A stretch of DNA of 32,352 nucleotides from a virus, in the IMG/VR virus record IMGVR_UViG_3300046004_000462, positions 1-32,352 of that record; one strand, 5' to 3'. Below, in pieces: positions 14,087-30,574 of the stretch. Each line of letters starts with the position of its first letter. Positions within the stretch are counted from its first letter, which is position 1. The notes below the pieces were generated by a model. It saw nothing but the letters and a program-made list of their open reading frames with translations. It searched no databases and was not told the origin of the DNA. The translations under genes and the position numbers were made by a program.

Positions 14087-14089
14087 TCA

Positions 14090-14790: not shown

Positions 14791-14900
14791 TACAACTATT
14801 TAGCATTCATAGGTTCTTACATCACTCATTTCATCGTATATACAGAACAGGTAATAGTTTTATTCTGTTTCGAGGGAAAACTATCAAAAACCCAATGAGA

Positions 14901-15848: not shown

Positions 15849-15853
15849 ATACT

Positions 15854-15882: not shown

Positions 15883-15887
15883 GTCTT

Positions 15888-16643
15888 TTATGCGTATCTC
15901 TCCTCATATTCTAGTCTGGCTAGAATATATTCCTTAACCAATTTGGACCTTACTATATCATGAACAGTAAACTCTAGTGTTTTGAACGAAGGCATTAGTT
16001 CTGCGATAGCGATAAACTTTTGAAGTCCCGACATATCGTTCTTTTTATATAAATCAGTTTGACGGAAATCTCCGCAAAAGATGATCTTTGAGTTTCTGCC
16101 AATTCGGGTCATAATCGAATTGAGTTCCATATCCGTCATATTCTGACATTCATCAACAATGACGATGGAATTATCTAGAGTGATACCACGAACAAACGAG
16201 GTGATCATAAAGTTCACCGACTTTTGTTCTTGCAATCGCTGAAATGGCTGGATATGATTAAACAAATCCTCGCAGATTTCTACATAAGGTAACTGATAAA
16301 CTTCTGTCTTTTCTTTTTCATCACCCGGTAGGTGACCAATTTCTCTTGATGGAACAGCAGAGCGGACTATTACTACTCGCTCAAATACTGTTTCTGGATC
16401 TAGTGCTTCTTCTAGTGCCTTAAAAAGCGCGATGTAGGTTTTCCCTGTTCCTGCTACACCGTGTAATAAAATTGCTGGGGACTGTTGGTCGTAAAGTTCA
16501 AAAAATCGTCTCTGATTAAAGTTTTTTGGTTGAATATTTTTTAGGTCTTCGTATTTTACTTTGCATAGCTTACTCTTCTCTAAGGTTACAGGAGCATCGT
16601 TATTTGAGACAACTTGTAATGGGATTTGTTTTTTTCTTGCCAT
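15888..16643 (-). CDS. phoH: PhoH-like ATPase
   Basis: 251 residues with AAAGGA 6 nt before the ATG. It has a basic N-terminus, 'IQPKNFNQRRFFELY', Walker A 'LLHGVAGTGKTY' (59-70), 'VVIVRSAVPSREIGHLPGDEKEK' (89-112), Walker B 'SIVIVDECQNMT' (159-170) and the sensor-like 'KIIFCGDFRQTDL'. This is the PhoH ATPase core, related to superfamily 1 helicases and very common in marine phages. Its role is not established; RNA metabolism is one suggestion. Two hairpins, one terminator-like, lie just upstream, so its expression depends on read-through or an unseen promoter. A candidate octamer AATAAATA lies at 16768-16775. Confidence 0.92.
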   Translation of the reverse strand: MARKKQIPLQVVSNNDAPVTLEKSKLCKVKYEDLKNIQPKNFNQRRFFELYDQQSPAILLHGVAGTGKTYIALFKALEEALDPETVFERVVIVRSAVPSREIGHLPGDEKEKTEVYQLPYVEICEDLFNHIQPFQRLQEQKSVNFMITSFVRGITLDNSIVIVDECQNMTDMELNSIMTRIGRNSKIIFCGDFRQTDLYKKNDMSGLQKFIAIAELMPSFKTLEFTVHDIVRSKLVKEYILARLEYEERYA

Positions 16644-16673
16644 GACAGTCCTTTAGGGGGTTTGAGTTGATAC

Positions 16674-16723
16674 AAAAAAGGCGACCCTGCTATTGCAGAG
16701 TCGCCGAGTGCCAAGGGAGGCAC
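16674..16723 (-). terminator. Tandem hairpins with rho-independent terminator upstream of phoH
   Basis: Minus strand: hairpin GTGCC-TCCCTT-GGCAC (16723-16708) is followed directly by GGCGACTCTGC-AATA-GCAGGGTCGCC (16705-16680, one mismatch). TTTTTT follows at 16679-16674. This would end transcripts of the gene at 16771-17319, only about 30 nt before the phoH start codon. Confidence 0.75.
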
Positions 16724-16770
16724 GATAGCTGGAGGAGGTGAGATCGGTATAACTGTCTTCATGTAGTTAT

Positions 16771-17319
16771 TTATTGTGTTGCGTCTTTCCACCAGCTAGG
16801 AATATCACGATTTTTCCATTTTGCCATAGTTTTTTTCGCACCGATATAATAGTTACGATATGACTGTAAGGAGTCGCCCGATACTTTATATTCATCTGGC
16901 ATAGCAGGTGTCGGTTGTGTTAAATGACTTACAGGAATATTTCTGGGCGGCTTGCGAAGAAAATAAACTAGTCGGTCAGTGGCATGAATTCTGCCATAGC
17001 GATGAGTGTATTCTGTAAGCAGGGATTGGAATAGACACATAAGCCAAGTATAATTATTGTTAGACTGGCGAACCCAGACAGCACTCGGATGATTGATATG
17101 TGTGGCTTTGTAGAGAACGGTTTCTAGCGTATTGTCTTCCATTCGCCATCTCTTGATTGAACGGCCATTAGCAGTCTTGTCCAGATATTGTTCACCGTCA
17201 ATTACACGGTGAGCGGTAGATAACAGTTGTGCATATTCTATAATCATCTTGACAACATGCTTGTCATTATGATATTCAGCGCACTTGGAAACGTCACGGT
17301 CCAAATAAAAGATATTCAT
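16771..17319 (-). CDS. Conserved phage protein of unknown function (MNIFYLDRD family)
   Basis: 182 residues. The opening 'MNIFYLDRDVSKCAEYHNDKHVVKMIIEYAQLLSTAHRV' is a pattern I recognise from many T4-like phage genomes, without an established function. Cys, His and Asp-Lys-His (C-x2-YH-x-DKH) could form a metal or catalytic centre. Downstream are 'HPSAVWVRQSNNNYTWL' and 'VSGDSLQSYRNYYIGAKK..MAKWKNRDIPSWW', both aromatic-rich. No signal or membrane segments. A perfect-consensus promoter (TTGACA-16-TATAAT) lies about 65 bases upstream within the previous gene, and a terminator follows the stop, so it can be a single transcription unit. Confidence 0.75.
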   Translation of the reverse strand: MNIFYLDRDVSKCAEYHNDKHVVKMIIEYAQLLSTAHRVIDGEQYLDKTANGRSIKRWRMEDNTLETVLYKATHINHPSAVWVRQSNNNYTWLMCLFQSLLTEYTHRYGRIHATDRLVYFLRKPPRNIPVSHLTQPTPAMPDEYKVSGDSLQSYRNYYIGAKKTMAKWKNRDIPSWWKDATQ

Positions 17320-17325
17320 GATATA

Positions 17326-17598
17326 TTAACTTTCTTCAATAGATTCACGTATGCAGCGTATATGCTCTTTTGCTACACTTGATATTATATCAGATTCCCT
17401 CGCAATGTCAAGACATTCTATAACTTCAATTGGGTCCATTTCTAATAAATCGTCCATCATGTTTCTTTCTGGTGTAACTCCGAAAGCATTTACGCAAAAT
17501 AAAACAATCTCAATATCGGCATCCGTATACAACGGTATGCGATAGCGTCTAGGTTCCTTACGAAACTTGTCTGGAAACTTTAGAATATTATTAGTCAT
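17326..17598 (-). CDS. Small hypothetical protein, 90 aa
   Basis: 90 residues, mixed charge, predicted mostly helical: 'ILKFPDKFRKEPRRYRIPLYTDADIEIVLFCVNAFG', then an acidic helix 'DDLLEMDPIEVIECLDIARESD'. I do not recognise a family. The gene lies 6 nt upstream of the 182-aa gene and 11 nt downstream of the carbamoyltransferase, so it fits the operon. Its middle codes both for protein and for a consensus promoter for the next gene. Confidence 0.6.
   Translation of the reverse strand: MTNNILKFPDKFRKEPRRYRIPLYTDADIEIVLFCVNAFGVTPERNMMDDLLEMDPIEVIECLDIARESDIISSVAKEHIRCIRESIEES
17384..17411 (-). promoter_or_regulatory. Perfect-consensus sigma70 promoter inside the 90-aa gene
   Basis: -35 TTGACA (17411-17406), 16-bp spacer, -10 TATAAT (17389-17384). 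Both hexamers are exact. Transcription would begin near 17377, giving a ~58-nt leader to the 182-aa gene at 17319. The element lies fully in coding sequence. Confidence 0.6.
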
Positions 17599-17609
17599 GT
17601 TAATATTTA

Positions 17610-19043
17610 TTATGAAAAGACTTTCACGCCATATTTCGCTTCAAAATCATCAGCATCTTTAAAGTTATTCACCATCGGCATACCCTTGATATTGAGACTT
17701 GTATTCAATAGCATTGGACAACCAGTTTCTTCATACCACCTACTAAGAAGGGCATATAGTCCCGGGTGTTGCTCTTTTGTCACAGTTTGGACGCGAGATG
17801 TCCCATCAGCATGAACAATAGCAGGAAACTGATCAGGATATTTACATCTTGAAGTATATTGCATATAAGGGGAGTCTTCCCATGACATTTCAAAGTAGTC
17901 TCGCGCACGTCCTGCCAGAATGACTGGAGCAAATGGGCGAAATTTTTGACGCTTTTTAATAGCATTTACTTTATCCTTAATGTCATGACCTCTTGGATCA
18001 GCTAGAAGGCTGCGATTACCTAATGCTCTAGGGCCGAATTCTGCTTGACCATTTGCAACACCTACTATACCAGTCTTATGCAATTCTGTCAAGAGTTTTT
18101 CTACCGGATATTCTCCTCCCATATCTGCGCCGAGATATGGACCCTTCCATTTCAATTTTTGTCTGTTGTTAGCTGCAATCGCACCCAAGGAACTTCCTGC
18201 ATCACCCGGATTTGGCATAATCCAAACGTTCTTGAAGTATTTTCTAGCAAGATGATTTGCAGAACAGTTTAACGCACAGCCACCCATAAGAACAAGATTA
18301 TCTTGTGCGGCATCTTTCATTTTTGCTCGTATCAGAAGTTTTTCGAATTCTTCTTCATAGACTTTTTGAGTTGCCGCAGCGACACTATAAATGTCCAGGT
18401 CTCCGTCATCTGGCCGCCACCAGCGACATCCACGATGCAGGTTCTCAGATTTCCAAAGATTTTTTACTTCATCATAATACTTTCCAGGATCACCATATGC
18501 TACCATTCCCATTAAGATATATTCGTCTTCATTGGGCTTTAACCCAATTCTATCTGTCATAGCAGAATAGAACAGACCCAAAGACTTAGGATAGTCCATA
18601 GACCATTTCTTTTTGAGTTTACTACCAGAGCATTTCCAGATTGACGCAGTATCGAATTCACCGATAGCATCAATAACAAGAGCGGTTGCATTATCATACG
18701 GCGAAGTATAGAAGCCAGCCGCGGCATGTGATTCATGATGAAATGCAAATTCTACCGGAATATCTTTTAGTCCGAAAGCAGCAAGATATTGTCTAACGCT
18801 AAATCTAACCATGCCCTGACCCGCAAGCAATCGTCTCATAGCTCTAAGTTTAGGTTTTTCATACCAGTGAATTTTTTCTGGTTTACCAAACATCAATGCC
18901 GCGCGAATTAAATCTACATTCAAGTCTTTGTCATTTTTGATACCCGAATACCGTTCAGCATGAGAAGCAAATAAAATTTCACTTCCATCAACTACTGTCA
19001 AAGATGCATCATGTGCTGCTGCGGATATACCCCATTCAATCAT
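17610..19043 (-). CDS. Carbamoyltransferase, NodU/CmcH (TobZ) family
   Basis: 477 residues, shorter than most NodU-type enzymes (about 550-600). N-terminal ASKHA-like domain: 'WGISAAAHDASLTVVDG' (4-20) and 'FHHESHAAAGFYTSPYDNATALVIDA' with the His-rich metal site (HHESH). 'LVLMGGCALNCSAN' and 'IMPNPGDAGSSLGA' follow. The C-terminal YrdC-like part has 'GQAEFGPRALGNRSLLADPR' and 'KFRPFAPVI'. All key motifs appear present. Such enzymes transfer carbamoyl from carbamoyl phosphate through an adenylate to sugar or nucleotide hydroxyls. In a phage the target could be modified DNA bases, a nucleotide or a surface sugar; the sequence does not decide. Its ATG overlaps the stop of the 34-aa gene by 8 nt. 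Confidence 0.88.
   Translation of the reverse strand: MIEWGISAAAHDASLTVVDGSEILFASHAERYSGIKNDKDLNVDLIRAALMFGKPEKIHWYEKPKLRAMRRLLAGQGMVRFSVRQYLAAFGLKDIPVEFAFHHESHAAAGFYTSPYDNATALVIDAIGEFDTASIWKCSGSKLKKKWSMDYPKSLGLFYSAMTDRIGLKPNEDEYILMGMVAYGDPGKYYDEVKNLWKSENLHRGCRWWRPDDGDLDIYSVAAATQKVYEEEFEKLLIRAKMKDAAQDNLVLMGGCALNCSANHLARKYFKNVWIMPNPGDAGSSLGAIAANNRQKLKWKGPYLGADMGGEYPVEKLLTELHKTGIVGVANGQAEFGPRALGNRSLLADPRGHDIKDKVNAIKKRQKFRPFAPVILAGRARDYFEMSWEDSPYMQYTSRCKYPDQFPAIVHADGTSRVQTVTKEQHPGLYALLSRWYEETGCPMLLNTSLNIKGMPMVNNFKDADDFEAKYGVKVFS
18064..18092 (-). promoter_or_regulatory. Possible internal sigma70-type promoter in the carbamoyltransferase gene
   Basis: TTGACA (18092-18087), 17-bp spacer, TATAGT (18069-18064). 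It would give a transcript entering the 90-aa and 182-aa genes. It lies deep in coding sequence and may be coincidence. Confidence 0.3.
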
Positions 19044-19184: not shown

Positions 19185-20540
19185 TCAATTCAATGTCTCG
19201 CAGTTTGCTCCAAAACCTATGACCCGAGTTTTTTCTGGTAACAATTTAATAAAACTTTTATACCTAGCTTGTGTTTCTTTTAGACCATAGTATCCATTGC
19301 TGAAATCAGTGCAAAATATATTAGAGATGTTAATTAATCCATTTTCAGATAGATGTGAACAAAGAGTTTCGGGAGAATTGAATAAATCACATTGAACAAA
19401 AACAACATTACTTTTTCTAAATTCTTCAATCAATTTATTAAAGTTTTCTTCTCCGCCGAAATACGAAACAGTTCGCTGATAACTCTCCAGAAAATCTTTA
19501 GTGAATTCTCCTGATTCCGTAAAAACCTGTCCACCGAGACATTTAAATGTTTTTTTATGTGGATACTCCTGCATTAATTGCAATGGATTTTTATTACTGT
19601 GCATTAGAGTTTCAATCCACTGAATACTTTTTGGATTGAAGTCATATATCACAATTTTACCATCCTGCTTCAGTTTACCCCGATGTAAAATTTCTAAAAA
19701 CTTGAACCCAGCGGCGGGAAACGCAGCGAAAGAATATTGCTTATTATTAAAATCAATTTTTATTTCTTCACTATTAAGAACCCAAATTTGATCAGAAAAG
19801 TTTCGAAGAGTATTAATAAAACGAATTTGATTGGGATTGGTAACTCCACAATTTCGTAATTCTTTTAGTGATTGTAATAGTTCATTGCCGTTATTCTCTG
19901 GGTAATAATATGTCCGCTTGGATCGTATCGTGTCATTCCAATTACCGATTTCACAATTACCACGACTAGAAGCATTAAAGTAATTCCATCCCTGCTTGGT
20001 ATGCTTCTGCGGTTTATATTCACCAGTATAGCGAATCCACAACGGTGTATAATCGTCATGGAAATTTTCTTCGCTTCTTTCTACAACCGGCAGTTCTTCA
20101 ATTTTCTGTTCCCATGCACCATAACTTGGTTTACCACATTTAATCCAGTTGCGGCTATTAACTAACACAAACTGATGATGTAGCTCGTACCAATCTTCTT
20201 TCCATTCTAAGATGTGCCCGAACGCCATGTAGTTGGGACTGGAAAGTATTTCTTCTCTGATCTCAAAGAGGATAGACATGTCATAGATGCGAACACCCGC
20301 TGCCATAAACAAGATATTCTTGTAAGTTCCGTGATACTTTGACATACCATCATCGATACTATCACATTCTAAAATTGATAATGTATTTTCGCGCCGCGCC
20401 AGTTGGTTAAACCTGAGCGCATAAAACTTAGTATACTCAACCATTCTTTTTGCAAGTTCTTTATTTTTAATCGTCTCAGTCGGAAAAATGCAAATTGCTA
20501 AATCTACATCGTTGACAAAATTACCTTGCACGATATTCAT
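19185..20540 (-). CDS. Unknown 451-aa protein with methyltransferase-like segment
   Basis: I do not recognise the full protein. The first ~150 residues have 'DLAICIFPTETI', 'NILFMAAGVRIYDMSILFEI' and 'YMAFGHILEW', reminiscent of a glycosyltransferase-like or nucleotide-binding fold. The C-terminal part has 'FAAFPAAGFKFLEILHRGKLKQDGKIVIYDFNPKSIQWIETL' (about 271-312), which looks like motifs I and II of a class I SAM-dependent methyltransferase, then 'VVFVQCDLFNSPE' and 'ISNIFCTDFSNGYYG'. The start overlaps the oxygenase stop by ATGA. It is the last gene of the radical SAM operon, so it probably shares that pathway. Confidence 0.55.
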   Translation of the reverse strand: MNIVQGNFVNDVDLAICIFPTETIKNKELAKRMVEYTKFYALRFNQLARRENTLSILECDSIDDGMSKYHGTYKNILFMAAGVRIYDMSILFEIREEILSSPNYMAFGHILEWKEDWYELHHQFVLVNSRNWIKCGKPSYGAWEQKIEELPVVERSEENFHDDYTPLWIRYTGEYKPQKHTKQGWNYFNASSRGNCEIGNWNDTIRSKRTYYYPENNGNELLQSLKELRNCGVTNPNQIRFINTLRNFSDQIWVLNSEEIKIDFNNKQYSFAAFPAAGFKFLEILHRGKLKQDGKIVIYDFNPKSIQWIETLMHSNKNPLQLMQEYPHKKTFKCLGGQVFTESGEFTKDFLESYQRTVSYFGGEENFNKLIEEFRKSNVVFVQCDLFNSPETLCSHLSENGLINISNIFCTDFSNGYYGLKETQARYKSFIKLLPEKTRVIGFGANCETLN

Positions 20541-21214
20541 AGTATTTCTCGTAAAAGTTCAGCGGGATTTGTAGTAAGTTTACCATGAATAATAATATGG
20601 TAACGATATTCGTCGCTATCGTTGATAACAGCGTGTTTCTTACCAATGTCAAGTAAAAAACCAGAACCTTGCTTAAACGGAACAACGCCATGTCCTTCTA
20701 TCACAAACTCACAACCTTCTGGGTTATTAATCGCAAAATTAAAAGGTCCGAAGATTCTTCCGATACCATCTGTATGTGGCATAATATATCCCTGAGGACT
20801 CATTCTCATGATACGAATTCTACCGTAATCTTTAAATGGTAGCGAATCAATTAGGTTTTTTGTCAATGGTAATTTCTCACAGACAGAAGTCCATTTATAG
20901 TTTGCTTCTTCTTCGCTGCTAAATCCATACCGATCATAATTTTCAGTTTTGTCGTAATCGATACCGTGCACCGTTAGCGAGTACCAACCCTCGTGACCAT
21001 AACTTTCAATTTTATCTTTTGCTCTGTGTTCTACAAAAAGTTCGCTAACAGCAGATAACTCTGCTATAATTTCATTGTAGTTATGAGTTCCTGTTGCGTT
21101 TACTTGCGACCAGGGCCAATCTGTTTCCCACAGATTATTCGGAAACGTATTGGGATAATTCCATTGCTTCTTTTTGTTTTCTGTAAGAAAGTTGATCAGT
21201 TCTGTGTTAGACAC
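20537..21214 (-). CDS. 2OG-Fe(II) oxygenase, aspartyl/asparaginyl hydroxylase-like
   Basis: 225 residues if started at GTG 21214, two bases after the upstream stop. The frame also opens at TTG 21262 but contains no ATG near the start, so I prefer GTG. The C-terminal double-stranded beta-helix is clear: 'RIRIMRMSPQGYIMPHTDG' with the H-x-D iron ligands (His147, Asp149), 'NFAINNPEGCEFVI', 'GSGFLLDIGKKHAVIN' with the third ligand His194, then Arg204 for 2-oxoglutarate (DEYRYHIIIHG). The family hydroxylates protein side chains or small molecules. The substrate is unknown; a link to the flanking radical SAM enzymes is likely. Translational coupling on both sides. Confidence 0.82.
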   Translation of the reverse strand: MSNTELINFLTENKKKQWNYPNTFPNNLWETDWPWSQVNATGTHNYNEIIAELSAVSELFVEHRAKDKIESYGHEGWYSLTVHGIDYDKTENYDRYGFSSEEEANYKWTSVCEKLPLTKNLIDSLPFKDYGRIRIMRMSPQGYIMPHTDGIGRIFGPFNFAINNPEGCEFVIEGHGVVPFKQGSGFLLDIGKKHAVINDSDEYRYHIIIHGKLTTNPAELLREIL

Positions 21215-21216
21215 AA

Positions 21217-22173
21217 TTATATCTTTTCTTTGCTTATCATAAAATCTGTTCCACAAAAGCAAAGTTTCTGGTTACAAATAACTCCCTTGGTTGGAAGTTG
21301 GTAATCCGCATGGTCGTTGATATGAAACATATATCCGCCCTGAAGACAATTCGCAACCTGGACATGTCCAGACCAAGAGACAAACAAACTTTCCAATCCT
21401 GCTGCACAATACCATCCAGCAAACTTATTATCACCTTCAGTAATATATTTATTTGACTGTCCATTATATTCTACCGAACCATCGTCGAAATAAAAGTCAG
21501 ACATCATGGACGAGTATTTGAAGTTTGGATTTACAATCGACGGATCATAATTCATTTCTTTTCTTGGAATTGACATTAGAATACTTTCCTGCTCGGGCGT
21601 ATAGGTTTCTCCAACGTTTGTTGCTCTCGCTTGTTCAGGAAGAACTCTTACTGCTTCTACTGCAATCTCAGGAATTTCACAACAACGTTGATACATTTCA
21701 TATGCTTTGTCCCAATATCTAGAATCCATCATGATTCTAACAGTTACTAAAGTTTGCTTTGATGCAACCTTTACCTTCTCTAAAAATTCTGGGTCTTCAT
21801 AACTTGGATGATAACTAAAGCATATATAACTAAATTTTTGGGCAATTTTTTCCCAATATTTTATAGGTTTTACACCATTTGTAGTTAAACCAATAGTATT
21901 ATTCTTACTCGTATAGAAAATGTCTACCAATTCTTTAAAGAACGGACTCAGTGTCGGTTCACCGCCGCTGATAGTGCAATGTATCTTTGGGTAGTGGTCA
22001 ATGAGTCGATAGATAAATTCTTTTGCACGCTCCCATTCATAGTGGTGATTCTTACCAGAATTCAATATTGGTGGACAATACGCGCAACGATTATTACAAA
22101 TATTATTAATAATCCACGTAAGCAACATTACATTTTCTGTTTGCTGTATTTTTATTAATTTCTTATCCATCAT
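21217..22173 (-). CDS. Radical SAM enzyme with Cys-rich (SPASM-like) C-terminus
   Basis: 318 residues. The 4Fe-4S/SAM motif is 'NNICNNRCAYCPP' (CxxxCxxC, about Cys26/Cys30/Cys33), followed by 'CTISGGEPTLSPFF' (the GGE SAM-contact motif) and 'IGLTTNG'. The C-terminal third has several cysteines: 'GWYCAAGLESLFVSWSGHVQVANCLQGG' and 'ICNQKLCFCGTDF', suggesting one or two auxiliary Fe-S clusters as in SPASM/twitch enzymes. Such proteins modify peptides, nucleosides or carbohydrates by radical chemistry. The start overlaps the 315-aa gene stop by four bases. Substrate unknown. Confidence 0.85.
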   Translation of the reverse strand: MMDKKLIKIQQTENVMLLTWIINNICNNRCAYCPPILNSGKNHHYEWERAKEFIYRLIDHYPKIHCTISGGEPTLSPFFKELVDIFYTSKNNTIGLTTNGVKPIKYWEKIAQKFSYICFSYHPSYEDPEFLEKVKVASKQTLVTVRIMMDSRYWDKAYEMYQRCCEIPEIAVEAVRVLPEQARATNVGETYTPEQESILMSIPRKEMNYDPSIVNPNFKYSSMMSDFYFDDGSVEYNGQSNKYITEGDNKFAGWYCAAGLESLFVSWSGHVQVANCLQGGYMFHINDHADYQLPTKGVICNQKLCFCGTDFMISKEKI

Positions 22174-23117
22174 AAAAATTCAATTTCTTTTAGTTCTACG
22201 AAAGTGCTAAACACATGTTCATCCCAATGTCGCTTTACGCTTCCTGCTTTTACACTGTAATCCGCAATTGTTCCGCCGTAGCGAGATATAAAATATTCAT
22301 CGATTATAATTTTTCCAAGTTTAAATCTACCATAAGTCAGTTTATTCAGATCGTCAATGGGAACTTTCTTTTGTAGATTCTCTGGTAACTCAGAATACAT
22401 CTTTTCCAGTTGTCTTATTTCCCAACCATCACTATCTGGACCAAAATTAATCCAAGTTTCTGCTGCGAATCTTTCCTGGGGTCTTACTTGTTCACGTTCG
22501 ATTACTTCTAAGTCTTTGTCGGCGACAACCTTCATCCAATCTTTACCAAGGGTGTTATAACCAAGATAAACTTCTCCCCACTGTAGCGTTGGTGTTAACC
22601 ATAGTTTATCGCGCTCGAGGATAGGAAGATGCAATCCTTGTGGATAATAATCATAAAGAAGTGCCATATTCGGAAAGTCGCCCTTCTTGATGTATAGCAA
22701 ATCTTCATGAAGGTGGATAAGTTCGTTCAGTTCCAAAAAGTCTTCGTGCAACTCTTGCGACCACCAATTGGCCGTTTGCATCAAATCCTCAAATCTATCG
22801 CCATACCGCTCAAACTCTTCATGCAAATAATTGAGTTCAGGTGTAGTAAGTTCTTCGATTTCTTCATACAATGGTAGCGGTTCATCGTAAACAGAATTAA
22901 TTCTGTTGAGACAATCAGTCAGTCTAGTTCTAACTTTAGAAATCTGACTATAGGAGAGATTAGTGAATCGAGTATTAATGTAAGAATCAGGAGTTTGTTG
23001 GTTTTTCTTTGTAATCTCGACCCATCGATTAACAAGATCCGTGGGATACAATGCAAAATGCAATTCGTGTTCTTTACCACAATCATCTAGGAAAACCAGT
23101 CTCAAGAGTGTTGCCAT
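22170..23117 (-). CDS. Unknown 315-aa protein in the radical SAM operon
   Basis: No family recognised with confidence. The N-terminal ~180 residues are acidic and helical with many His and Glu ('YEEIEELTTPELNYLHEEFERYG', 'HEDFLELNELIHLHEDLLYI'). These resemble a four-helix carboxylate- or His-containing bundle. The second half has 'LWLTPTLQWGEVYLGYNTLGKDW' and 'FKLGKIIIDEYFISRYGG'. One base separates it from the upstream radical SAM gene, and it overlaps the next one (ATGA), so it belongs to the pathway and may be a partner or substrate-binding protein. Confidence 0.6.
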   Translation of the reverse strand: MATLLRLVFLDDCGKEHELHFALYPTDLVNRWVEITKKNQQTPDSYINTRFTNLSYSQISKVRTRLTDCLNRINSVYDEPLPLYEEIEELTTPELNYLHEEFERYGDRFEDLMQTANWWSQELHEDFLELNELIHLHEDLLYIKKGDFPNMALLYDYYPQGLHLPILERDKLWLTPTLQWGEVYLGYNTLGKDWMKVVADKDLEVIEREQVRPQERFAAETWINFGPDSDGWEIRQLEKMYSELPENLQKKVPIDDLNKLTYGRFKLGKIIIDEYFISRYGGTIADYSVKAGSVKRHWDEHVFSTFVELKEIEFL

Positions 23118-23118
23118 A

Positions 23119-24381
23119 TTAAATACCTTTCAATAATTTGTAGTAATCACCATATACTTCTGAAAATTTAATCGGACGCATCAGTTCTAGTGTATCGATG
23201 TAATTCATCAAATCGGGGAACTTGTCGGAATCATCTCTACTGGTCATATATTCAAACTGATATTTAATTCTATTAATCCATCGCGGATGATTAACCAGAT
23301 CAGGATATTCTTCCCACCTCTTGTTAATAATCTCTTTAACGTTCCGCGGTAAAACTGTTGTGCTAAGATATTGGGGCCAATGAGTAGTACCTACGGAAAA
23401 TAGTCCCTCGTTGCGTTTGCAGATTTTTTTCCATTTACGATCTATAATTGCTTGTGCAAAATCAGGTAGATTGTAGATGTTCATTGCGTGAACAGTAGCA
23501 AGAATATTAACAACGATATTATCTGCCGTTTCGTCTAACCGATCAAGATTCTTTGAGATTACTTCCCATGATGCTGGCCAACGAACAAACTCGTTTCTAG
23601 ATCCCCAATCATCAAGACTTACCATCAATTCAACTAATTTGAATTGACTCCAGAGATCAATAAACTTTTCGCTTAGTTGAGTTCCGTTTGTATGATAGCG
23701 CAGTTCAATATTCTTACTATGACCGCTTTCTACAAGTTTTGTGATGAAACGTTCATGCCCCTTGATTAGTAGAGGTTCTCCCCCACCAAAAATAATGTGG
23801 CGAATATCACCCATAAACTCATCTAGTGCGTCTTGGGTTTCTAGTTTCTCAAACCAGTCAAAACAATCGGTATTAGCAATACTTTTTGATTTAAAATCCC
23901 AATCACTTTTTGCACCAGGACTAGTCAGGGTTTGTGCAAGTTTCTTACTATCATTCAACCACTTACTGCTATCACGAGGACGACACATAACACATTGAAG
24001 ATTGCATGTATTACCAATGCGCAAATCCAAAGTAATTGGGTTAAAGTCTACGCTACCATCTGGATTTGTAAGAGAGATTATGCGATTAATTTTTTCTGCG
24101 CCCAACTTGCGCTTCCACATATCATTCTCGATTACACGGTGACTCTTGATTCCACTTGCTTCTTCTTTCCAACAAGCATTGCATTGAGGAGGTTGTTCTC
24201 CGTTGATAAACTTCAGTCTTGCCCGTTTAAACTGCTCACTGTTCCAAATTTCTTGGGGAGTTGAGTCATTGAAGTTTAAATTTGCCTCAGGTGAAGCAAC
24301 ACAGCAAAGTGGAACCTTGCCGTCATTCCAACTTGCAAGATGTATCCATGGCTGGATACAGAAATTTTTATTATCAATCAT
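23119..24381 (-). CDS. Twitch-domain radical SAM protein 1
   Basis: 420 residues. An N-terminal Cys cluster 'NFCIQPWIHLASWNDGKVPLCCVA' and 'PPQCNACWKEE' (within the first 70 residues) probably binds an auxiliary cluster. The radical SAM motif 'GNTCNLQCVMCRP' (CxxxCxxC) follows, with 'IIFGGGEPLLIKGHERF' and 'YHTNGT'. Placing the twitch-like cluster before the SAM domain is typical of a phage group annotated as twitch-domain radical SAM proteins. The reaction is unknown. The ATG overlaps the end of the second such gene by 8 bases. Confidence 0.85.
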   Translation of the reverse strand: MIDNKNFCIQPWIHLASWNDGKVPLCCVASPEANLNFNDSTPQEIWNSEQFKRARLKFINGEQPPQCNACWKEEASGIKSHRVIENDMWKRKLGAEKINRIISLTNPDGSVDFNPITLDLRIGNTCNLQCVMCRPRDSSKWLNDSKKLAQTLTSPGAKSDWDFKSKSIANTDCFDWFEKLETQDALDEFMGDIRHIIFGGGEPLLIKGHERFITKLVESGHSKNIELRYHTNGTQLSEKFIDLWSQFKLVELMVSLDDWGSRNEFVRWPASWEVISKNLDRLDETADNIVVNILATVHAMNIYNLPDFAQAIIDRKWKKICKRNEGLFSVGTTHWPQYLSTTVLPRNVKEIINKRWEEYPDLVNHPRWINRIKYQFEYMTSRDDSDKFPDLMNYIDTLELMRPIKFSEVYGDYYKLLKGI

Positions 24382-25663
24382 ATAATTTTGCCAAACGTGT
24401 ATCTAAAACTGATATACTTTCTTTGCGCTCTTCATCAAGTGCGTTAGTATATATACGAAATCTATTTACCATAATTTCCCAATCTTTAAGACGAGAATTC
24501 TTAAAAAACCCTACGATGCCTTGAAGAGAATTTTTAGTCATTTCATTCTGAATGGTATTTACTTCACAATAATCTTCAATGAGTTCCACAGCTTCTTTGC
24601 GTAAATCGTCGGGTAAGATTAATGCGCTTAGATGCACCGGGTGATGGTTGATTAGAAAATCAATAAAAATATCCTTAGAATATTTCTCACGTAAATCGTC
24701 TACCCAAGTAAGGATATTTACAACATCAAATGCATTGTATACTTGAATTGTTGGCGTGATACCAAGATGAACATTTGACATTTGTGCAAATTTTTCAATA
24801 TTCTTAGAAACTTGCGACCATTTACTTGGCGCTCTAATATACTCGGTCACTGCCCCAATACCATCAATGCTGGCATTAATATTAACGGCATCAAATTGTG
24901 AGATTAGTTCAAAGAACTTTGGATTAATATTTGTGCAATTAGTATTAAAGAATAGAGTTATATCTCTGCGACCCTGACGAATGCACTCTTCCATAAACTT
25001 ATAGTTATTTTTAATTAGAGTGGGTTCGCCACCTGTCATGTAAACTTTTTTCAATGTTGGAATCAGCGAAATAACTTGATCCCAAAGAATATTGTGATCA
25101 AACCAAGGTTGGTCCTCCATAACTTTTTCTGGGAATTTACCAAAGGTCTTTTGCCACACATCAGCATAATCGGGTCGGCGAGTAACTAAATCAGTATGCT
25201 CTTTTACGATCTGACTGCTATTCCAGGGGTTACACATTCTACACTTTAAATTACACAAATTACCTAAACGCAGGTCGAGATATACGGGAGCAGTTTCAAC
25301 AAACCCATCTGCTTCTCCTGCAGATTCAATAATCTGCTTCAGTTCTTCTGTGCCAAGACGTTGTGACCATTCCCGCAAACTATGCTGGCGATTACTCATC
25401 TTATTATCGTCTTCTTGCTGATAACAAACTGCACATCCAGGAATAGATTCAGCATTAATCATTTTTCTTCGAATATCTCGAATACTTTCTGAGTTCCAAG
25501 CATCTTCAATAAAATTATCTCGACATGTATATGCCTCACCTGTATCTTTTGAAACAACATTTGCACGACCTTTGACCATACAACAATACCGCACAGTAGT
25601 GTCTGTGTTAATCATTGTGCTTACAAAAGGTATTGCGCACATACTTTTATTATTTTCGAACAT
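24374..25663 (-). CDS. Twitch-domain radical SAM protein 2
   Basis: 429 residues, a paralogue of the next gene in the operon. The Cys-rich N-terminus reads 'MCAIPFVSTMINTDTTVRYCCM' and 'PGCAVCYQQEDD'. The SAM motif is 'GNLCNLKCRMCNP', with 'VYMTGGEPTLIKNNYKF' and 'LFFNTNCTN'. The pair shares architecture but differs widely in sequence, suggesting two substrates or steps. Start ATG has CGGAACC upstream. A weak late-type octamer (TATAAATG, minus strand 25712-25705) lies ~42 bases upstream but overlaps coding sequence. Confidence 0.85.
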   Translation of the reverse strand: MFENNKSMCAIPFVSTMINTDTTVRYCCMVKGRANVVSKDTGEAYTCRDNFIEDAWNSESIRDIRRKMINAESIPGCAVCYQQEDDNKMSNRQHSLREWSQRLGTEELKQIIESAGEADGFVETAPVYLDLRLGNLCNLKCRMCNPWNSSQIVKEHTDLVTRRPDYADVWQKTFGKFPEKVMEDQPWFDHNILWDQVISLIPTLKKVYMTGGEPTLIKNNYKFMEECIRQGRRDITLFFNTNCTNINPKFFELISQFDAVNINASIDGIGAVTEYIRAPSKWSQVSKNIEKFAQMSNVHLGITPTIQVYNAFDVVNILTWVDDLREKYSKDIFIDFLINHHPVHLSALILPDDLRKEAVELIEDYCEVNTIQNEMTKNSLQGIVGFFKNSRLKDWEIMVNRFRIYTNALDEERKESISVLDTRLAKLYD

Positions 25664-25703
25664 GGTGGTTCCGATTAGTTGATAAATTGTTCAAAGTCTC
25701 TAT

Positions 25704-26267
25704 TCATTTATAACCCACTGCCATGTATCTATAAAAATGTCCACATTTCAACATTCCTGCATACTGTGGTTCTTTGATATTGTTGATTGTCAAAAAATGT
25801 GCTAGATCATCAGCAAGACGAACATGCTCAGGATTAACTAGATTATTTCCTTGGACGATATATTTAGTACCACTAGGAATAGAGTTCCACCAAGCATCAT
25901 AAACTTCTTGCGTCACATGCTCGGAACTGGTGTTGATAACTAGATCAGGGTGTGGATGATTGAGTGGCATACCATTTTGCATGTTGTGCTGACGAAATGT
26001 GATATCGTGATAATACTCATCGATAGCAGCAAACACCTTCTTACATTCAGAGTCCATGTCAGTAGTTAGTATTCGTGCATCAGGAAACTTGTGGGCAATA
26101 AACTGCGCAAGAACTCCATACCATCCACCAAAAATTACGATAGATCTATCAAGAGGAGTTACATGTTCCAGTAACCATTTCTTACTCTCTATCTGACTTG
26201 GCCAAAAGTTCTCAGAGAATCTGTATGCATTCTCTGGATTATTACGGATGTATTCCATCCAATTCAT
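25704..26267 (-). CDS. SAM-dependent methyltransferase-like protein
   Basis: 187 residues from ATG 26267 (MNWMEYIRNN), 13 bases after the upstream stop. An upstream in-frame ATG at 26342 would overlap the previous gene by 62 bases and is less likely. Class I fold features are motif I 'IVIFGGWYGVLAQFIAHKFP', the acidic strand end 'ILTTDMDSECKKVF', and 'PDLVINTSSEHV', a motif IV-like strand. The GGWYG loop is seen in a phage/bacterial methyltransferase-like group of unknown substrate. It precedes the radical SAM pair and may use or make part of the same product. Confidence 0.7.
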   Translation of the reverse strand: MNWMEYIRNNPENAYRFSENFWPSQIESKKWLLEHVTPLDRSIVIFGGWYGVLAQFIAHKFPDARILTTDMDSECKKVFAAIDEYYHDITFRQHNMQNGMPLNHPHPDLVINTSSEHVTQEVYDAWWNSIPSGTKYIVQGNNLVNPEHVRLADDLAHFLTINNIKEPQYAGMLKCGHFYRYMAVGYK

Positions 26268-26280
26268 TACAACATCAAAA

Positions 26281-26682
26281 TTAACCACGGCGCATTTTCG
26301 CAATCTCCAAAATTTGTTCGTCATTGATAACAGGTACAGCATTACTCTTATGTAGAACGCTGATACCCTTAATAAGTGTGCCCGTATAGACTTTTTCTTT
26401 ACGAGTATAGTTTACACCAATACCATCTCCAGAAGGATATTTTTGTCGATGGTCACTGACTTCATATTTAGGTAGAGGTGTGCCACGCAAGTTAGGTTTA
26501 AATCTACCTTGCCGATATTGCACATACTCGTCAAAGGTCTTAGTCGAAGAACCAAGGCGTTTCATCTGCTTATTGTAATCTACCCAATCTTGCGCATATC
26601 TACTAGTCACGCCTTTGTTTGTAGTTTTGCGCTTTTTAGTATTTGTCGTAGTGTAAGCTGGACCCAACAAATGCATAGTCAT
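26281..26682 (-). CDS. Hypothetical basic protein, 133 aa
   Basis: ATG at 26682 (MTMHLLGPAYTTT) with AAGGAG 6 nt upstream; the longer frame to 26715 lacks this support. The product is basic: 'NTKKRKTTNKGVTSRYAQDWVDYNKQMKRLG' and 'FKPNLRGTPLPKYEVSDHRQKYPSGDG', ending 'ILEIAKMRRG'. No family is recognised with confidence. The Lys/Arg content could suit nucleic acid binding. It is the first gene after a sigma70-type promoter and leads into the methyltransferase/radical SAM operon. Confidence 0.7.
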   Translation of the reverse strand: MTMHLLGPAYTTTNTKKRKTTNKGVTSRYAQDWVDYNKQMKRLGSSTKTFDEYVQYRQGRFKPNLRGTPLPKYEVSDHRQKYPSGDGIGVNYTRKEKVYTGTLIKGISVLHKSNAVPVINDEQILEIAKMRRG

Positions 26683-26703
26683 AACAATCTCCTTATGACT
26701 TTC

Positions 26704-26732
26704 ACAATACAACATATTTGTTTTAATGTCAA
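26704..26732 (-). promoter_or_regulatory. Sigma70-type promoter for the radical SAM operon
   Basis: -35 TTGACA (26732-26727), 17-bp spacer, -10 TATTGT (26709-26704), about 20 nt before the AAGGAG start at 26682. The -35 elements of this and the plus-strand promoter lie back to back, 13 bp apart. Confidence 0.65.
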
Positions 26733-26991: not shown

Positions 26992-27128
26992 TGAACCCCG
27001 AAGAACTAGAGCAACACTTCCGTCAGATGGAGAAGGAACTATTCGAACAAGAAGTTACTTCGAAGTCGCCCGATACACGCCGTCCCAATCTTTCGGAGGT
27101 GATACCTGAAACTCTTCAATACGGCTAA
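26991..27128 (+). CDS. Small hypothetical protein, 45 aa, overlapping the cyclase gene
   Basis: TAATG coupling to the previous gene and an AAGGAAGG site 8 bases upstream support translation. Product is acidic at the N-terminus ('NPEELEQHFRQMEKELFEQE') and polar after that. Its last 74 bases overlap, on the opposite strand, the end of the adenylyl cyclase gene. No family is recognised. Confidence 0.55.
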   Translation: MNPEELEQHFRQMEKELFEQEVTSKSPDTRRPNLSEVIPETLQYG

Positions 27129-29145
27129 TCATCGAGTCGTAATAATCAGATAGATTACCTTGCCAGCACTTCTTTAAGTCGCTGGCAAATTTTTTGGCAA
27201 CTTCCCAATTACCTTCGCGATAAAATGTAAGGAACTTCTCATGTTGTTTCTCGCCTGGATGGTCAAAGGTTTCCAAAACTGTAAAAATCTTAGCTGGCAG
27301 GGTCTTACCTTTAACTGCAATCAAATCAAGTTCAACTACTTGGTATACATCCCTAACCAGTTCGGCCGTTTGTGGTCCGACGATGAGTTTGACGCCATAA
27401 GACTTGGTTTGACCTTCCAGACGAGCAGCCAGATTAACGCCATCCCCCAAGCAAGTATAGTCAAAACGCTGAGTGCTGCCCATATTACCAACAACCACAG
27501 TGGCAGTGTTAATACCAAGACCCATCCCAAAAGCGGGAATGCCTTCTCTTTGAACTTCTTCATTGAAAGTCTCCAAATCTTTTAGCATCTGGAAGGCCGT
27601 TTGAACTGCATCCAACGCATGTTTATTGTTATCAAGAGGCGCATTCCAGAATGCCATCTGTGCATCACCGATATACTTATCCAGTGTGCCGTTATTTTCA
27701 AGAATTGCTTTTGTCATAACCGTCATGTAACGATTCATGATTGACGTTAGACCTTGGACATCTTCTCCGTAGTGTTCAGAAATTGTAGTAAAGCCTCGAA
27801 CGTCAGTGAACATAATCGAAAGCTCTCTTGATTCTCCGCCGAGTTTCAAGAGGTCTGGTTGTCTTTGCAATCTCGCAACCAGATCTGGACTCAGATATGT
27901 GCCAAACTGTTTCTTAATCTGTTGTTTCTGTAGGAACTCACTGATAAACTTAGCAGTGTAGATATGCATATAGATTAATGCAATGGCAAACAAATTAAAC
28001 GAAACATCGAATAGAATATTCTGCGTTTGAAATAAATATGTCGGTAAGTATAGATATCCGCCCAGTAGAATTACAATATATACTATTGAGAATCTAAAAC
28101 GAGAAAGAACAATCAATGCCAGAGCAAGACCCAGAAAAGCCGCAAGATCCGCAATTTCTGACCAATTCGGAATCGACACAGAGTCACCATTCAGGAGAGT
28201 TTCTAGTAGACTGGCCTGTAACTGATGGGGATGTTGGGCACCTGAAGGAGTCGCTACAGGGTTCGCTATACCAGCAGCAGTTACGCCAACAATTACAATT
28301 TTCCCATCAAGACGAGGAATATCGTCACCTACTTCAACAGATGGAAATACGTAATTGGGATTAACAAATACTCTACCATATTCGTCTGTTTTAATTGTTT
28401 CAAAAGAAGGAATTCGTAATGCTTCAACCCCAGTCTGATTTATCTTGGCTTGATACGAAGAGTCTCCTGCAGCTACACGCAGCATCTCTATCGCAAATGC
28501 GGGATAGTATTCGCCTGATGACCCAGATAGAAGAGGAACTCGCCTTACAACCCCATCAGGCTCGGGTAGGGTTGACGTTATCCCAACACCGACTGCGGCT
28601 TCTTGAAGAGGTGCGATATTACTTAGAACGCATGGATATTGAGGAAGAAATTCAGTTGCTTCTCCATCGCCGATTACGGCAACGCCTGTTCTCCGAATTG
28701 TCGCACTTGCCTGAGGTGAACCTTGGCCAGATATCGATCCAGCAATACAGTCAGCGGAAACAGTCTGACTCAGGACTACTGGATACTGACTTAGGGTATC
28801 CGCAAGAACTCGATCAGTCCCCATCCGATCAGACTCAGAATAAAGTATAGTGCTGCCAACAAGAGCAGCCCCTCGACTATAAAGGTCATTAATAATTTGA
28901 GCATGGACCTCACGTGGAAATGGCCACTGACCATATTTCTCAATTGCTTTCTCCCCGATATTGACGGTTACAATTTGTTCAGATTGCGTCGGTGAACCGA
29001 GCATCAAATAATCATAAAACTTCAATCTCGCGGATTCAACCAAGTAAGGGTTTGATAATTTTACTACTAACAATAACGCAAAAGTAATCAGTGCCAACCA
29101 AGGCGAAAGAAGAGCTTTCTTAGTTTTTTGTATAAGAGTATCCAT
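27055..29145 (-). CDS. CHASE2-domain membrane adenylyl cyclase (class III)
   Basis: 696 residues. A first membrane helix (about 16-30) precedes a CHASE2 sensor (about 35-325: 'KFYDYLMLGSPTQSEQIVTVNIGEKAIEKYGQWPFPRE', 'GKIVIVGVTAAG'). Three more membrane helices follow (about 331-350, 353-372, 379-398), then a cyclase domain (about 435-625). Catalytic residues appear intact: metal Asp448 (FTDVRGF) and Asp494 (KYIGDAQMAFW), adenine-selecting Lys490 and Asp562 (FDYTCLGD), transition-state Asn571 and Arg575 (NLAARLE). It should convert ATP to cAMP in the cytoplasm in response to an external signal. Its start overlaps the curlin-repeat gene by 26 bases. The pattern FecR gene next to CHASE2-cyclase is also known in bacteria. 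A phage-encoded copy is unusual. Confidence 0.92.
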   Translation of the reverse strand: MDTLIQKTKKALLSPWLALITFALLLVVKLSNPYLVESARLKFYDYLMLGSPTQSEQIVTVNIGEKAIEKYGQWPFPREVHAQIINDLYSRGAALVGSTILYSESDRMGTDRVLADTLSQYPVVLSQTVSADCIAGSISGQGSPQASATIRRTGVAVIGDGEATEFLPQYPCVLSNIAPLQEAAVGVGITSTLPEPDGVVRRVPLLSGSSGEYYPAFAIEMLRVAAGDSSYQAKINQTGVEALRIPSFETIKTDEYGRVFVNPNYVFPSVEVGDDIPRLDGKIVIVGVTAAGIANPVATPSGAQHPHQLQASLLETLLNGDSVSIPNWSEIADLAAFLGLALALIVLSRFRFSIVYIVILLGGYLYLPTYLFQTQNILFDVSFNLFAIALIYMHIYTAKFISEFLQKQQIKKQFGTYLSPDLVARLQRQPDLLKLGGESRELSIMFTDVRGFTTISEHYGEDVQGLTSIMNRYMTVMTKAILENNGTLDKYIGDAQMAFWNAPLDNNKHALDAVQTAFQMLKDLETFNEEVQREGIPAFGMGLGINTATVVVGNMGSTQRFDYTCLGDGVNLAARLEGQTKSYGVKLIVGPQTAELVRDVYQVVELDLIAVKGKTLPAKIFTVLETFDHPGEKQHEKFLTFYREGNWEVAKKFASDLKKCWQGNLSDYYDSMISRIEEFQVSPPKDWDGVYRATSK

Positions 29146-30574
29146 TACATGGTCCAGTCGTGCATGTTATTTCCATTTTCGCAGAGTCGGCGGCAGTCAA
29201 GTTATTTTGCGTGACAGTTACACCAATTCCAGGACTATTTAGTAAAAGTTGAAATTGCTTCATAGAAGAACCCAATTGAGTAACAGATGCAGTAACTCCA
29301 CCAAACGGTGCGCTGATATCTAGAAAATGGTTAGCAGTTCCCTGTTGTAAGGTGCTGATATTATTAGAGTTTCCTAAAACACTGATAAACAACGATTTTC
29401 CTCCAGCATCTTTTTGTTGTGCGGAGATTTGATTGCCAAGACCATTGGTGACAATCTCGGCGTATTTGCCTGCATATTGTTGTGTCAGTGATACGATGTT
29501 GTTGTTACCAGTAACAGAAACTTCTGCCAAGTTCTTACCAATTGGAGTTGTTGTCGTTCCTTGGTTGATAGTAACGCTGTTGCCACTACCATTGATAGTC
29601 ATTGCTTGTGCGCCATTGACACCACGGATTTGGTTCTGCTTAGAGAACTGTTCAATGTAAACTGAATTGTTAGAACCCGTTGCATTGATATAGATGGAGT
29701 TTTGTGTAATCGCATTTGTTTGATTAATCTTCAATGATTGATTAGCACTAATTGTTGCTAATGGAAATGTTGGAGCAGGAGGTTCAGGCGCAGGAGGTGG
29801 AGGCGCAGAAGAACCAGCATTAGGTTGAACTGGCGCAAAGGTTGTTCCATTGAGTGAAGTTGTACCCTGCATCTGATCGATAAACAGAATTGGCGACAAT
29901 GCGGTATCACCTAGATTGAATGAGGCAAATCCTAACAGATAGTTTCCATCAGTAGGAACTGTGAATACGGCGACTTGCCAACCAGTAGCACCGTAAGATC
30001 CAACTGAATAGTTACCAGTGCCTTCGTTTGTAAATCCAAGAAGCGCAAAGTTTTGGGTTTGTCCATTAATCGTTGGGGTTCCTGGGCCACCAGTCAATGT
30101 AATCATAGAACCATCATTGTATGGAACATAATCGGTAGAAACATACTGCCAAGCATAACTGTATGTCGTGCCTGCTTGTAGAAATATTGTTCTACTGATA
30201 GATGTGGCATTCGTAGGATTCATATTACCATTTGCATAGATGGTATTTCTAATCGAAGTAATTGTAGAACCTGTCAACCCCAAAGTAGTCATAGCACCGT
30301 CAAATCCAGGAGAACCACCACCTGCTTGAAGTGAAATCATATATGAACCATATGGCGTAACAGTCCAGCATTTACCATCACCTGGACAGTAGTTAGTCAT
30401 ACCAGTTGTAACTTGTGCGCCAGAACCACTATCACTCCACGAAGTTCTTGCGGCAGTTGAACCGTTACTCACCGTCCAACCAGTATAGTTACCATTCTCG
30501 AAACCATAGTTCGTAACTTGCGCGAATGCAGGCATCGTAAAGAACAGGAGGAAGAGAGCAATTAGTTTTTTCAT
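29120..30574 (-). CDS. Secreted protein with beta-sandwich domain and curlin-type repeats
   Basis: 484 residues. A clear signal peptide (KKLIALFLLFFTMPAFA|Q) is followed by an aromatic/Gly-rich beta domain (about 20-245: 'NYGFENGNYTGWTVSNGS', 'TGWQVAVFTVPTDGNYLLGFASF'). This resembles carbohydrate-binding-like or PEP-CTERM-type sandwich domains. A Pro-rich linker (PPPPAPEPPAP) leads to a C-terminal repeat region with 'ATGSNNSVYIEQ', 'GSGNSVTINQG', 'VTGNNNIVSLTQQ' and 'GLGNQISAQQ'. The G-x-x-N-x5-Q spacing is curlin-like (CsgA/CsgB). It probably forms or decorates an extracellular fibre. Overlaps the FecR stop by four bases. Confidence 0.78.
   Translation of the reverse strand: MKKLIALFLLFFTMPAFAQVTNYGFENGNYTGWTVSNGSTAARTSWSDSGSGAQVTTGMTNYCPGDGKCWTVTPYGSYMISLQAGGGSPGFDGAMTTLGLTGSTITSIRNTIYANGNMNPTNATSISRTIFLQAGTTYSYAWQYVSTDYVPYNDGSMITLTGGPGTPTINGQTQNFALLGFTNEGTGNYSVGSYGATGWQVAVFTVPTDGNYLLGFASFNLGDTALSPILFIDQMQGTTSLNGTTFAPVQPNAGSSAPPPPAPEPPAPTFPLATISANQSLKINQTNAITQNSIYINATGSNNSVYIEQFSKQNQIRGVNGAQAMTINGSGNSVTINQGTTTTPIGKNLAEVSVTGNNNIVSLTQQYAGKYAEIVTNGLGNQISAQQKDAGGKSLFISVLGNSNNISTLQQGTANHFLDISAPFGGVTASVTQLGSSMKQFQLLLNSPGIGVTVTQNNLTAADSAKMEITCTTGPCNGYSYTKN

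Follow-up and report, generated by a model that had tools for sequence, protein, structure and literature searches.

A core of three genes, encoding a 2OG-Fe(II) oxygenase and members of two apparently undescribed protein families, is kept together and in many cases fused in relatives of the virus studied here, and we propose, with a probability of about 0.5, that it forms the centre of a phage-borne glycoconjugate pathway, in which the core would hydroxylate, glycosylate and O-methylate an acceptor and accompanying enzymes would decorate it. In the window, by which we mean the entire 32,352 nt of record IMGVR_UViG_3300046004_000462, the core lies within seven consecutive minus-strand genes (19185-26342) that overlap by at most 8 nt or are separated by at most 40 nt, provided that the oxygenase starts, as is likely, at a GTG. 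Exact 4-nt ATGA overlaps join the gene for the 451-aa core protein to that of the oxygenase, and the gene for a 318-aa radical SAM protein (rSAM318) to that of the 315-aa core protein (the orphan). The oxygenase/rSAM318 junction is -46 nt by the longest open reading frame and +2 nt by the GTG at 21214, probably the true start because it agrees with the starts of relatives; the other junctions are -8, +1 and +40 nt. The tight coupling reported in the preliminary description is thereby borne out, as is the carbamoyltransferase gene next door (17610-19043, minus strand), 141 nt downstream. The end that it gave to the operon, 26682, falls inside an eighth minus-strand reading frame and takes in most of it, so the seven genes end at 26342. 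That frame (26281-26715) overlaps the adjoining seventh gene and encodes a 144-aa protein matching phrog_27048, a family of unknown function, at E 8.2e-17; it stands at the head of the operon, of which it is an uncertain member. Promoter-like sites numbered 41 against 34.2 expected, and terminator-like sites 6 against 6.2.

The comparison of the arrangement started from 126 loci, the viral scan with the orphan profile contributing the best 80 of 98 relatives. Seventeen were removed by hand (near-identical or repeated window contigs, L001, L002 and L035), L125 and L126 were set aside for separate analysis, and merging by shared 21-mers took the other 107 down to 69. Of 57 non-redundant viral loci, 44 carry the three core genes as a single uninterrupted run, with the oxygenase scored at 60 bits or more. 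An oxygenase match lies within 5 kb in all 58 loci that have the 451-aa gene, weak second matches being counted, and shares one reading frame with it in 19 of the 58; in the window the two are separate adjoining genes. Besides this fusion, orphan-oxygenase, 451-orphan and reversed 451-oxygenase fusions were found, and one bacterial reading frame matches all three core proteins, the orphan part weakly. Conversely, 12 of the 57 orphan loci have no oxygenase and/or no 451-aa gene on the same strand within 5 kb, and the 105-kb record G014 has no 451-aa gene. Distances within the core are correlated (Mantel r 0.90-0.93, 0 of 2000 permutations), these being locus distances with no unlinked gene as a control. 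The gene set is kept in relatives at 30-90% identity, and since gene order persists between viral contigs whose proteins are 30-60% identical, the operon is more than a chance assembly: it is real and common to many uncultured T4-like bacterial viruses, not a feature of a single genome.

The remaining genes are separable from this core. A radical SAM gene of any kind occurs within 5 kb in 37 of the 57 orphan loci, the gene for MT212, the small methyltransferase-like protein of the operon, in 11 of the 57, and the carbamoyltransferase in 8 of 22 records. The preliminary description had read the whole set as a multi-step modification pathway, to be judged by co-occurrence in other phages, with independent scattering as the adverse outcome. 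The contiguity and frequent fusion of the core support such a pathway, and the reading holds for these three genes but not for the radical SAM, MT212 and carbamoyltransferase genes as fixed members.

Among the core proteins, the oxygenase (241 aa, 20537-21262, minus strand, likely start at 21214) is assigned by its sequence to the Asp_Arg_Hydrox family (PF05118, E 9.3e-12, 45.5 bits against a cut-off of 22.6), in agreement with its earlier annotation. Residues H163, D165 and H210, which we take to be the HxD...H iron site, and R220, presumably the 2OG-binding arginine, are invariant in 24 sequences. Against the PDB, its profile matched human AspH (5apa, E 3.9e-5) and L-proline cis-4-hydroxylase (4p7w, E 1.1e-4). 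PF05118 also includes lipid and free amino-acid hydroxylases.

The 451-aa protein (19185-20540, minus strand) has no significant family-level match in Pfam, NCBIfam or PHROG, and a PDB profile search with its family returned nothing useful. Its AlphaFold2 model (mean pLDDT 91.0, pTM 0.88; best Foldseek E 9e-5) predicts a GT-A glycosyltransferase fold at about residues 8-245 joined to a class I SAM methyltransferase fold at 246-451, an assignment that is new here. With VIA-align, the first domain matches GT-A folds at Z 9.3-10.4 (rmsd 3.0-4.3 over about 143-185 residues), with ties across unrelated donors and acceptors, and the second matches the Rossmann methyltransferases PNMT and NNMT at Z 9.3-9.8. 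Glycosyltransferase structures of the chlorovirus PBCV-1 match at Z 9.3-9.5; a match to human LH3 falls on residues 294-539 of the LH3 chain, presumably its accessory glycosyltransferase-like domain and not the catalytic one. H109, H161 and D162 are invariant among 25 sequences of the family. In the alignment, the window's copy has AAGVRI in place of a conserved DxD metal motif, and the lineage of L045, L048, L052 and L056 has PDTEF or ADTEF there. Metal-independent GT-A enzymes exist; the missing motif nevertheless lowers the claim to a classical GT-A enzyme, and activity is not certain. Of the two methyltransferase-like proteins described earlier, the 451-aa protein is thus better regarded as a predicted glycosyltransferase-methyltransferase fusion whose overlooked first domain indicates sugar chemistry.

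The orphan (22170-23117, minus strand), previously noted as merely rich in His and Glu, belongs to a conserved family whose model (mean pLDDT 87.8) predicts a cyclophilin-like barrel into which a helical segment is inserted, likewise a new assignment. The first 40 VIA-align matches are mostly cyclophilins (Z 7.7-10.3), the best at Z 10.3 with 138 residues aligned and rmsd 3.0, yet the best Foldseek PDB match reaches an E-value of only 0.12. H99, E103, H135 and E138 are invariant and lie on two helices of the predicted model. Sequence searches gave no Pfam match at E ≤ 1, none in PHROG or NCBIfam and no cyclophilin among the PDB profile matches; neither they nor Foldseek back the cyclophilin match. 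A protein of Agrobacterium phage Atu_ph07 matches the orphan fold in BFVD (E 2.1e-11); neither the orphan nor the oxygenase profile finds a sequence match in its record, and a permissive scan of its pieces gave weak matches, all at E 4e-5 or above among the matches listed.

The three radical SAM proteins of the preliminary description, two with N-terminal Cys clusters, are likewise recovered, each with a CxxxCxxC motif. In rSAM318 (21217-22173, minus strand; PF04055, 47.3 bits against a cut-off of 29.5) the motif is at residue 26, and C-terminal Cys 256, 276, 300, 305 and 307 are invariant among 12 sequences. The two longer proteins, of 420 aa (23119-24381) and 429 aa (24374-25663), both minus strand, are N-terminal-twitch radical SAM proteins, matching N_Twi_rSAM (NF033640) over their full length (357.6 and 351.7 bits against a cut-off of 170), with N-terminal Cys at 8, 26/27 and 67/70, and at 9, 27/28 and 77/80; the model names no reaction, and membership therefore assigns them no function. 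Vibrio phage K566 carries several such twitch genes, and its record has no match to the orphan or oxygenase profile. MT212 (212 aa, 25704-26342, minus strand) matches Methyltransf_25 below the cut-off (E 0.0066), with G73, W74, G76, D95 and D97 invariant in an alignment of 11; a search with its profile gave one unrelated weak match. The carbamoyltransferase has both domains common to the NodU/TobZ family above cut-off (PF16861, E 2.5e-52; PF02543, E 1.3e-36), its nearest solved structures being a novobiocin-type carbamoyltransferase (9s2t), GdmN and TobZ, although at 477 aa it is shorter than its solved relatives (576-702 aa).

Neither the orphan nor the 451-aa family was found by sequence in 50,697 GenBank phage records, and both appear to be undescribed families; the cassette was likewise absent from the titles and abstract openings listed in searches of published open-access literature. 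Both families also occur in Bdellovibrionota genomes. A first cellular scan found two relatives and later profile searches more: within one order, 5 of 129 genomes have the 451-aa family, and within one phylum, 32 of 368 have the orphan family. The idea of a purely viral core was rejected on these grounds. The neighbours are varied. Paired glycogenin-like (GT8) proteins lie upstream in several lineages; the L012 neighbourhood has GT7, UDP-glucose dehydrogenase and carbamoyltransferase genes; around a twitch pair, G021 has a carbamoyltransferase 57% identical to that of the window, an epimerase, FkbM and GT11; and in a Halobacteriovoraceae genome the core is near GT2, a YdjC-like protein, a B12-radical SAM protein and a carbamoyltransferase. 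In one T4-like lineage the core has no companions and is flanked by a CobT-like peptidase gene and by CobS/sliding-clamp genes, and in G029 and G030 it adjoins unrelated genes. A tail-fibre-like gene (c17 of L015) lies upstream in one lineage; in PHROG scans of this neighbour family, c17, one member matched tail fibres (E 1.8e-5 and 0.0038) and a family of unknown function (E 5.1e-22), and three members gave no match. A PDB profile search with another neighbour family, c6, returned nothing useful.

In the pathway that we propose, the AspH-type oxygenase would hydroxylate the acceptor, the GT-A domain would add a sugar to the hydroxylated acceptor and the fused methyltransferase domain would cap it. 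The orphan would bind or present the acceptor, and on that proposal the three core proteins would quite probably operate as a single complex. The twitch radical SAM proteins, rSAM318, MT212, extra glycosyltransferases and the TobZ-like carbamoyltransferase would build or decorate the sugar as interchangeable parts that vary between phages. That sugars are involved we consider likely, because of the predicted GT-A and methyltransferase folds and the sugar genes nearby (GT8, GT7, UDP-glucose dehydrogenase, carbamoyltransferase). With slightly less than even confidence we favour a protein acceptor, either a fibre of the phage or a protein on the host surface, on account of the AspH-like oxygenase, the cyclophilin fold and the tail-fibre-like gene. 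The boldest version, an undescribed three-part protein-modifying machine of aquatic T4-like phages and Bdellovibrionota that attaches an O-methylated glycan to a hydroxylated side chain, must be considered doubtful.

Much the same sugar genes, together with the epimerase, would suit a cassette that alters LPS or capsule during infection, for example to exclude competing phages, with the oxygenase acting as a lipid or sugar hydroxylase. We regard this as unlikely, if a serious contender, since the core also stands alone among CobT-like and CobS/sliding-clamp genes or beside unrelated ones, and an unsystematic look turned up neither a dedicated lipid carrier nor a flippase or an O-antigen ligase. 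Tailoring of a short encoded peptide, as in RiPP pathways, by the twitch/SPASM radical SAM proteins, oxygenase and methyltransferases would fit the weak NCBIfam similarity of the radical SAM proteins to many peptide maturases, the peptide-binding potential of a cyclophilin-like protein and the fact that AspH-type oxygenases act on peptides; it is nevertheless improbable, there being no obvious precursor in intra-operon gaps of at most 40 nt, small unconvincing reading frames in the flanking gaps of 141 and 339 nt, and no transporter or recognition element recognised, again unsystematically.

Nucleic acids, also named earlier as possible targets, fare worse. Base J and the TET-based modifications of phages arise by hydroxylation followed by glycosylation, and one lineage has the core among replication genes, but shielding of the phage genome by such bases seems quite improbable: the oxygenase is of PF05118 and not Tet_JBP (PF12851, in 0 of 22 records, a search whose control was also silent), and homologs reside in bacterial chromosomes. 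Thymidylate-synthase-type genes, which include dCMP hydroxymethylases, occur in 2 of 21 records (PF00303), and canonical 5-hydroxymethylcytosine chemistry, with little to support it, was set aside. As for tRNA or rRNA, radical SAM enzymes and methyltransferases often modify RNA and weak similarity to QueE/MoaA exists, yet matches above the curated cut-offs included neither an RNA-binding domain nor a tRNA-modification family, which makes RNA a very improbable target.

If the glycoconjugate reading is correct, phages own a hydroxylate-glycosylate-methylate machine for which two undescribed protein families supply the parts, and whose fusions are single polypeptides suited to expression and assay and whose bacterial homologs offer a possible genetic system. 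It would also give a handle on the radical SAM/glycosyltransferase cassettes of abundant aquatic phages, be their role virion decoration, host remodelling or another. Pelagimyophages, also T4-like and aquatic, carry glycosyltransferases and "radical SAM" cassettes in variable host-recognition islands, and an aspartyl/asparaginyl beta-hydroxylase is called core to all of them; the orphan/oxygenase/glycosyltransferase-methyltransferase unit, its fusions and a shared pathway are not described in the available part of that article (PMC7029224). A virus-encoded GT-A domain and a methyltransferase also share one protein in PBCV-1 A064R, a GT-GT-methyltransferase for the capsid glycan according to the accessible portion of PMC9614988. 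The 451-aa protein differs in having a single glycosyltransferase domain where A064R has two, in the absence of DxD from the window's copy, and in its coupling to an oxygenase and a predicted cyclophilin-like protein; the capsid-glycan role is that of A064R. Mimivirus L230 (PMC9614988) and human LH3 similarly combine a 2OG oxygenase and a glycosyltransferase in one polypeptide that hydroxylates and then glycosylates. The phage oxygenase, in contrast, is of PF05118 and not of the lysyl/prolyl-hydroxylase type, the fusion order is usually oxygenase-glycosyltransferase, and a methyltransferase is also fused. Collagen-like proteins (PF01391) occur in 5 of 21 records, 4 of them above cut-off, and collagen was set aside as a general target. 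Should the three-part machine prove real, it would be an independently assembled prokaryotic counterpart to the hydroxylation and glycosylation of collagen, in which radical SAM enzymes would make the sugar more diverse.

The 32,352-base window, an IMG/VR virus record, comes from a T4-like aquatic phage, as judged by its ssDNA-binding protein, which shares 56% identity with the counterparts in Methylophilales phage Melnitz, Pelagibacter phage HTVC008M and cyanophages. Seven consecutive genes occupy the minus strand from 26342 down to 19185. Two of their junctions overlap by exactly 4 nt and one by 8 nt, and gaps of 1 and 40 nt separate two others; the remaining junction measures -46 nt if the longest ORF is taken and +2 nt if the GTG at 21214 is the start. 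The preliminary description had recognized this tight packing, but the span it gave includes most of an eighth ORF (26281–26715). Its adjacent carbamoyltransferase gene lies 141 nt past the operon end, and the three radical SAM (rSAM) proteins and one 2OG oxygenase that it listed are borne out by family matches: two rSAM proteins, with the N-terminal twitch, are full-length NF033640 members, the third is shorter and matches PF04055, and the oxygenase belongs to PF05118, with an invariant HxD...H...R set. Of its two methyltransferase-like proteins, that of 212 residues has a weak methyltransferase match, whereas that of 451 residues is predicted to be a composite.

Neither this 451-aa protein nor the 315-aa orphan has a significant family match, and their structures were predicted from alignments of relatives. 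The 451-aa model (pLDDT 91.0) comprises two domains. The N-terminal one has a GT-A fold, whose best matches (Z 9–10.4) are tied across many glycosyltransferases (GTs) and name no donor at the level of the predicted fold; the C-terminal one resembles class I methyltransferases in its fold (Z 9.3–9.8 to PNMT/NNMT). In the alignment of relatives, the DxD motif is absent from the window's GT domain. Rows 1–40 of the structure alignment for the orphan model (pLDDT 87.8) are mostly cyclophilins (Z 7.7–10.3). Foldseek, proposed earlier for such orphans, gave by itself no significant PDB match for it; among predicted viral structures the orphan matches uncharacterised phage proteins, with E-values down to 2.7e-27. 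In the alignment, H99, E103, H135 and E138 of its helical insert are invariant and possibly form a metal site. Active-site support for both the GT domain and the orphan is incomplete, which we count against the mechanism proposed below.

Scans of viral contigs yielded 28 loci with the orphan (best 80 of 98 kept for its profile), 5 with the 429-aa rSAM protein and 38 with the 451-aa protein, reduced to 69 non-redundant loci, of which 57 carry the orphan and 58 the 451-aa family. All 58 of the latter also encode the oxygenase no more than 5 kb from the 451-aa gene, 19 of them in the same ORF. Of the 57 orphan loci, 45 have these three core genes together on one strand inside 5 kb, and 37 have some rSAM gene at that distance or less. 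Co-occurrence across phages, suggested earlier as a check, favors a conserved core: the core run is uninterrupted in 44 of the 57, 17 of these runs being a two-gene unit of orphan and fused oxygenase–451 with no adjoining rSAM gene. Orphan–oxygenase, 451–orphan and reversed 451–oxygenase fusions also occur, and one bacterial ORF matches all three proteins, the orphan part weakly (17 bits in the portion examined). Distance matrices, compared among linked genes only with no unlinked-gene control, correlate at r 0.90–0.93 within the core and 0.65–0.90 for pairs including rSAM genes, values reached in 0/2000 permutations. As exceptions, one or both core partners are missing nearby in 12/57 orphan loci, and the 451-aa gene is absent from the whole of the 105-kb record G014. 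We conclude that the core is real, widely conserved and separable, with interchangeable accessories, and that the orphan and the 451-aa protein represent two undescribed families.

Neither protein found a match in 50,697 GenBank phage records, whether with window queries (E 0.01) or relatives' proteins (E 0.001). A scan of 84,980 bacterial species genomes gave 2 loci, both, by record title, in MAGs of the Bacteriovoracales type, which we take to belong to the phylum Bdellovibrionota. By profile, the 451-aa family is present in 5/129 genomes of one bacterial order and the orphan in 32/368 of the phylum containing it. In a 207-kb Halobacteriovoraceae contig, the core is flanked by genes of cellular appearance (PilZ, histidine kinase, response regulator), and ~8 kb around it encode two twitch rSAMs, a carbamoyltransferase, a B12-rSAM, a GT2 and a YdjC-like protein.

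Other sugar genes accompany the core in some viruses. Paired proteins upstream of the cassette in several phage lineages resemble glycogenin (GT8) in a profile search (E 1.6e-9), and locus L012 encodes a GT7, UDP-glucose dehydrogenase, a carbamoyltransferase and a 451-aa protein fused to a B12-rSAM. In the 239-kb record G021 the core is apart from the twitch rSAM pair (451-aa gene at 77 kb, pair at 148–150 kb), near which are an epimerase, an FkbM methyltransferase, a GT11 and a carbamoyltransferase sharing 57% identity with that of the window. Since it is present in 8/22 records, the carbamoyltransferase is considered an accessory. Against a sugar pathway, the core is separated from other sugar genes in several neighborhoods.

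On the simplest reading, the oxygenase would create a hydroxyl on an acceptor held by the orphan, the GT domain would attach a sugar to it and the methyltransferase domain would cap that sugar, which the rSAM enzymes, extra GTs and carbamoyltransferase would diversify. We infer this function; as the acceptor we favor, at about even odds, a protein over a lipid or polysaccharide, because solved relatives of the oxygenase family in profile searches include protein and proline hydroxylases and because a cyclophilin-like partner suits a polypeptide. A serious rival is that the cassette remodels the host surface, as the pelagimyophage authors (PMC7029224) read GTs in such islands. A candidate acceptor is a 280-aa protein (family c17) encoded upstream of the paired GT8-like genes and cassette in several lineages (L015, L030 and L056; e.g. 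L030:1154–1993); three members have no PHROG match, and one bears a Gly-rich tail-fibre-like extension.

Elsewhere in the window, a phage-borne tmRNA (14810–15186, minus strand) encodes the tag ANDNVAFAGYALAA; tmRNA is described in PMC9004378 as a feature of Melnitz-like phages. Also on the minus strand are a curlin-repeat protein (31685–32350; PF07012 just over cut-off) and a 484-aa protein (29120–30574) with repeats that resemble it by eye. These could be the missing fibre subunits, because related phages carry csgF/csgG, reportedly without csgA/csgB (PMC7029224, PMC9004378). A CHASE2–nucleotide cyclase protein (27055–29145) and a FecR protein (30571–31761), again on the minus strand and kept in relatives L005 and L007, possibly form a second-messenger module. 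Vibrio phage K566 (L002; OZ196521) has several twitch rSAM genes (11711–18453 and 28029–29084), with PagP and nicotinamide phosphoribosyltransferase genes nearby.

The cassette oxygenase differs in type from those of mimivirus L230 and human LH3, a hydroxylase-glycosyltransferase acting on collagen. The LH3 analogy is limited by a fold match of the 451-aa protein at LH3 residues 294–539, presumably an accessory domain, and the analogy to viral layouts by the lack of DxD. Within these bounds, parts of the cassette have viral precedents, alike in layout rather than family: according to PMC9614988, L230 hydroxylates lysine and adds glucose, and A064R of chlorovirus PBCV-1 joins GT domains to a methyltransferase, finishing the capsid glycan.
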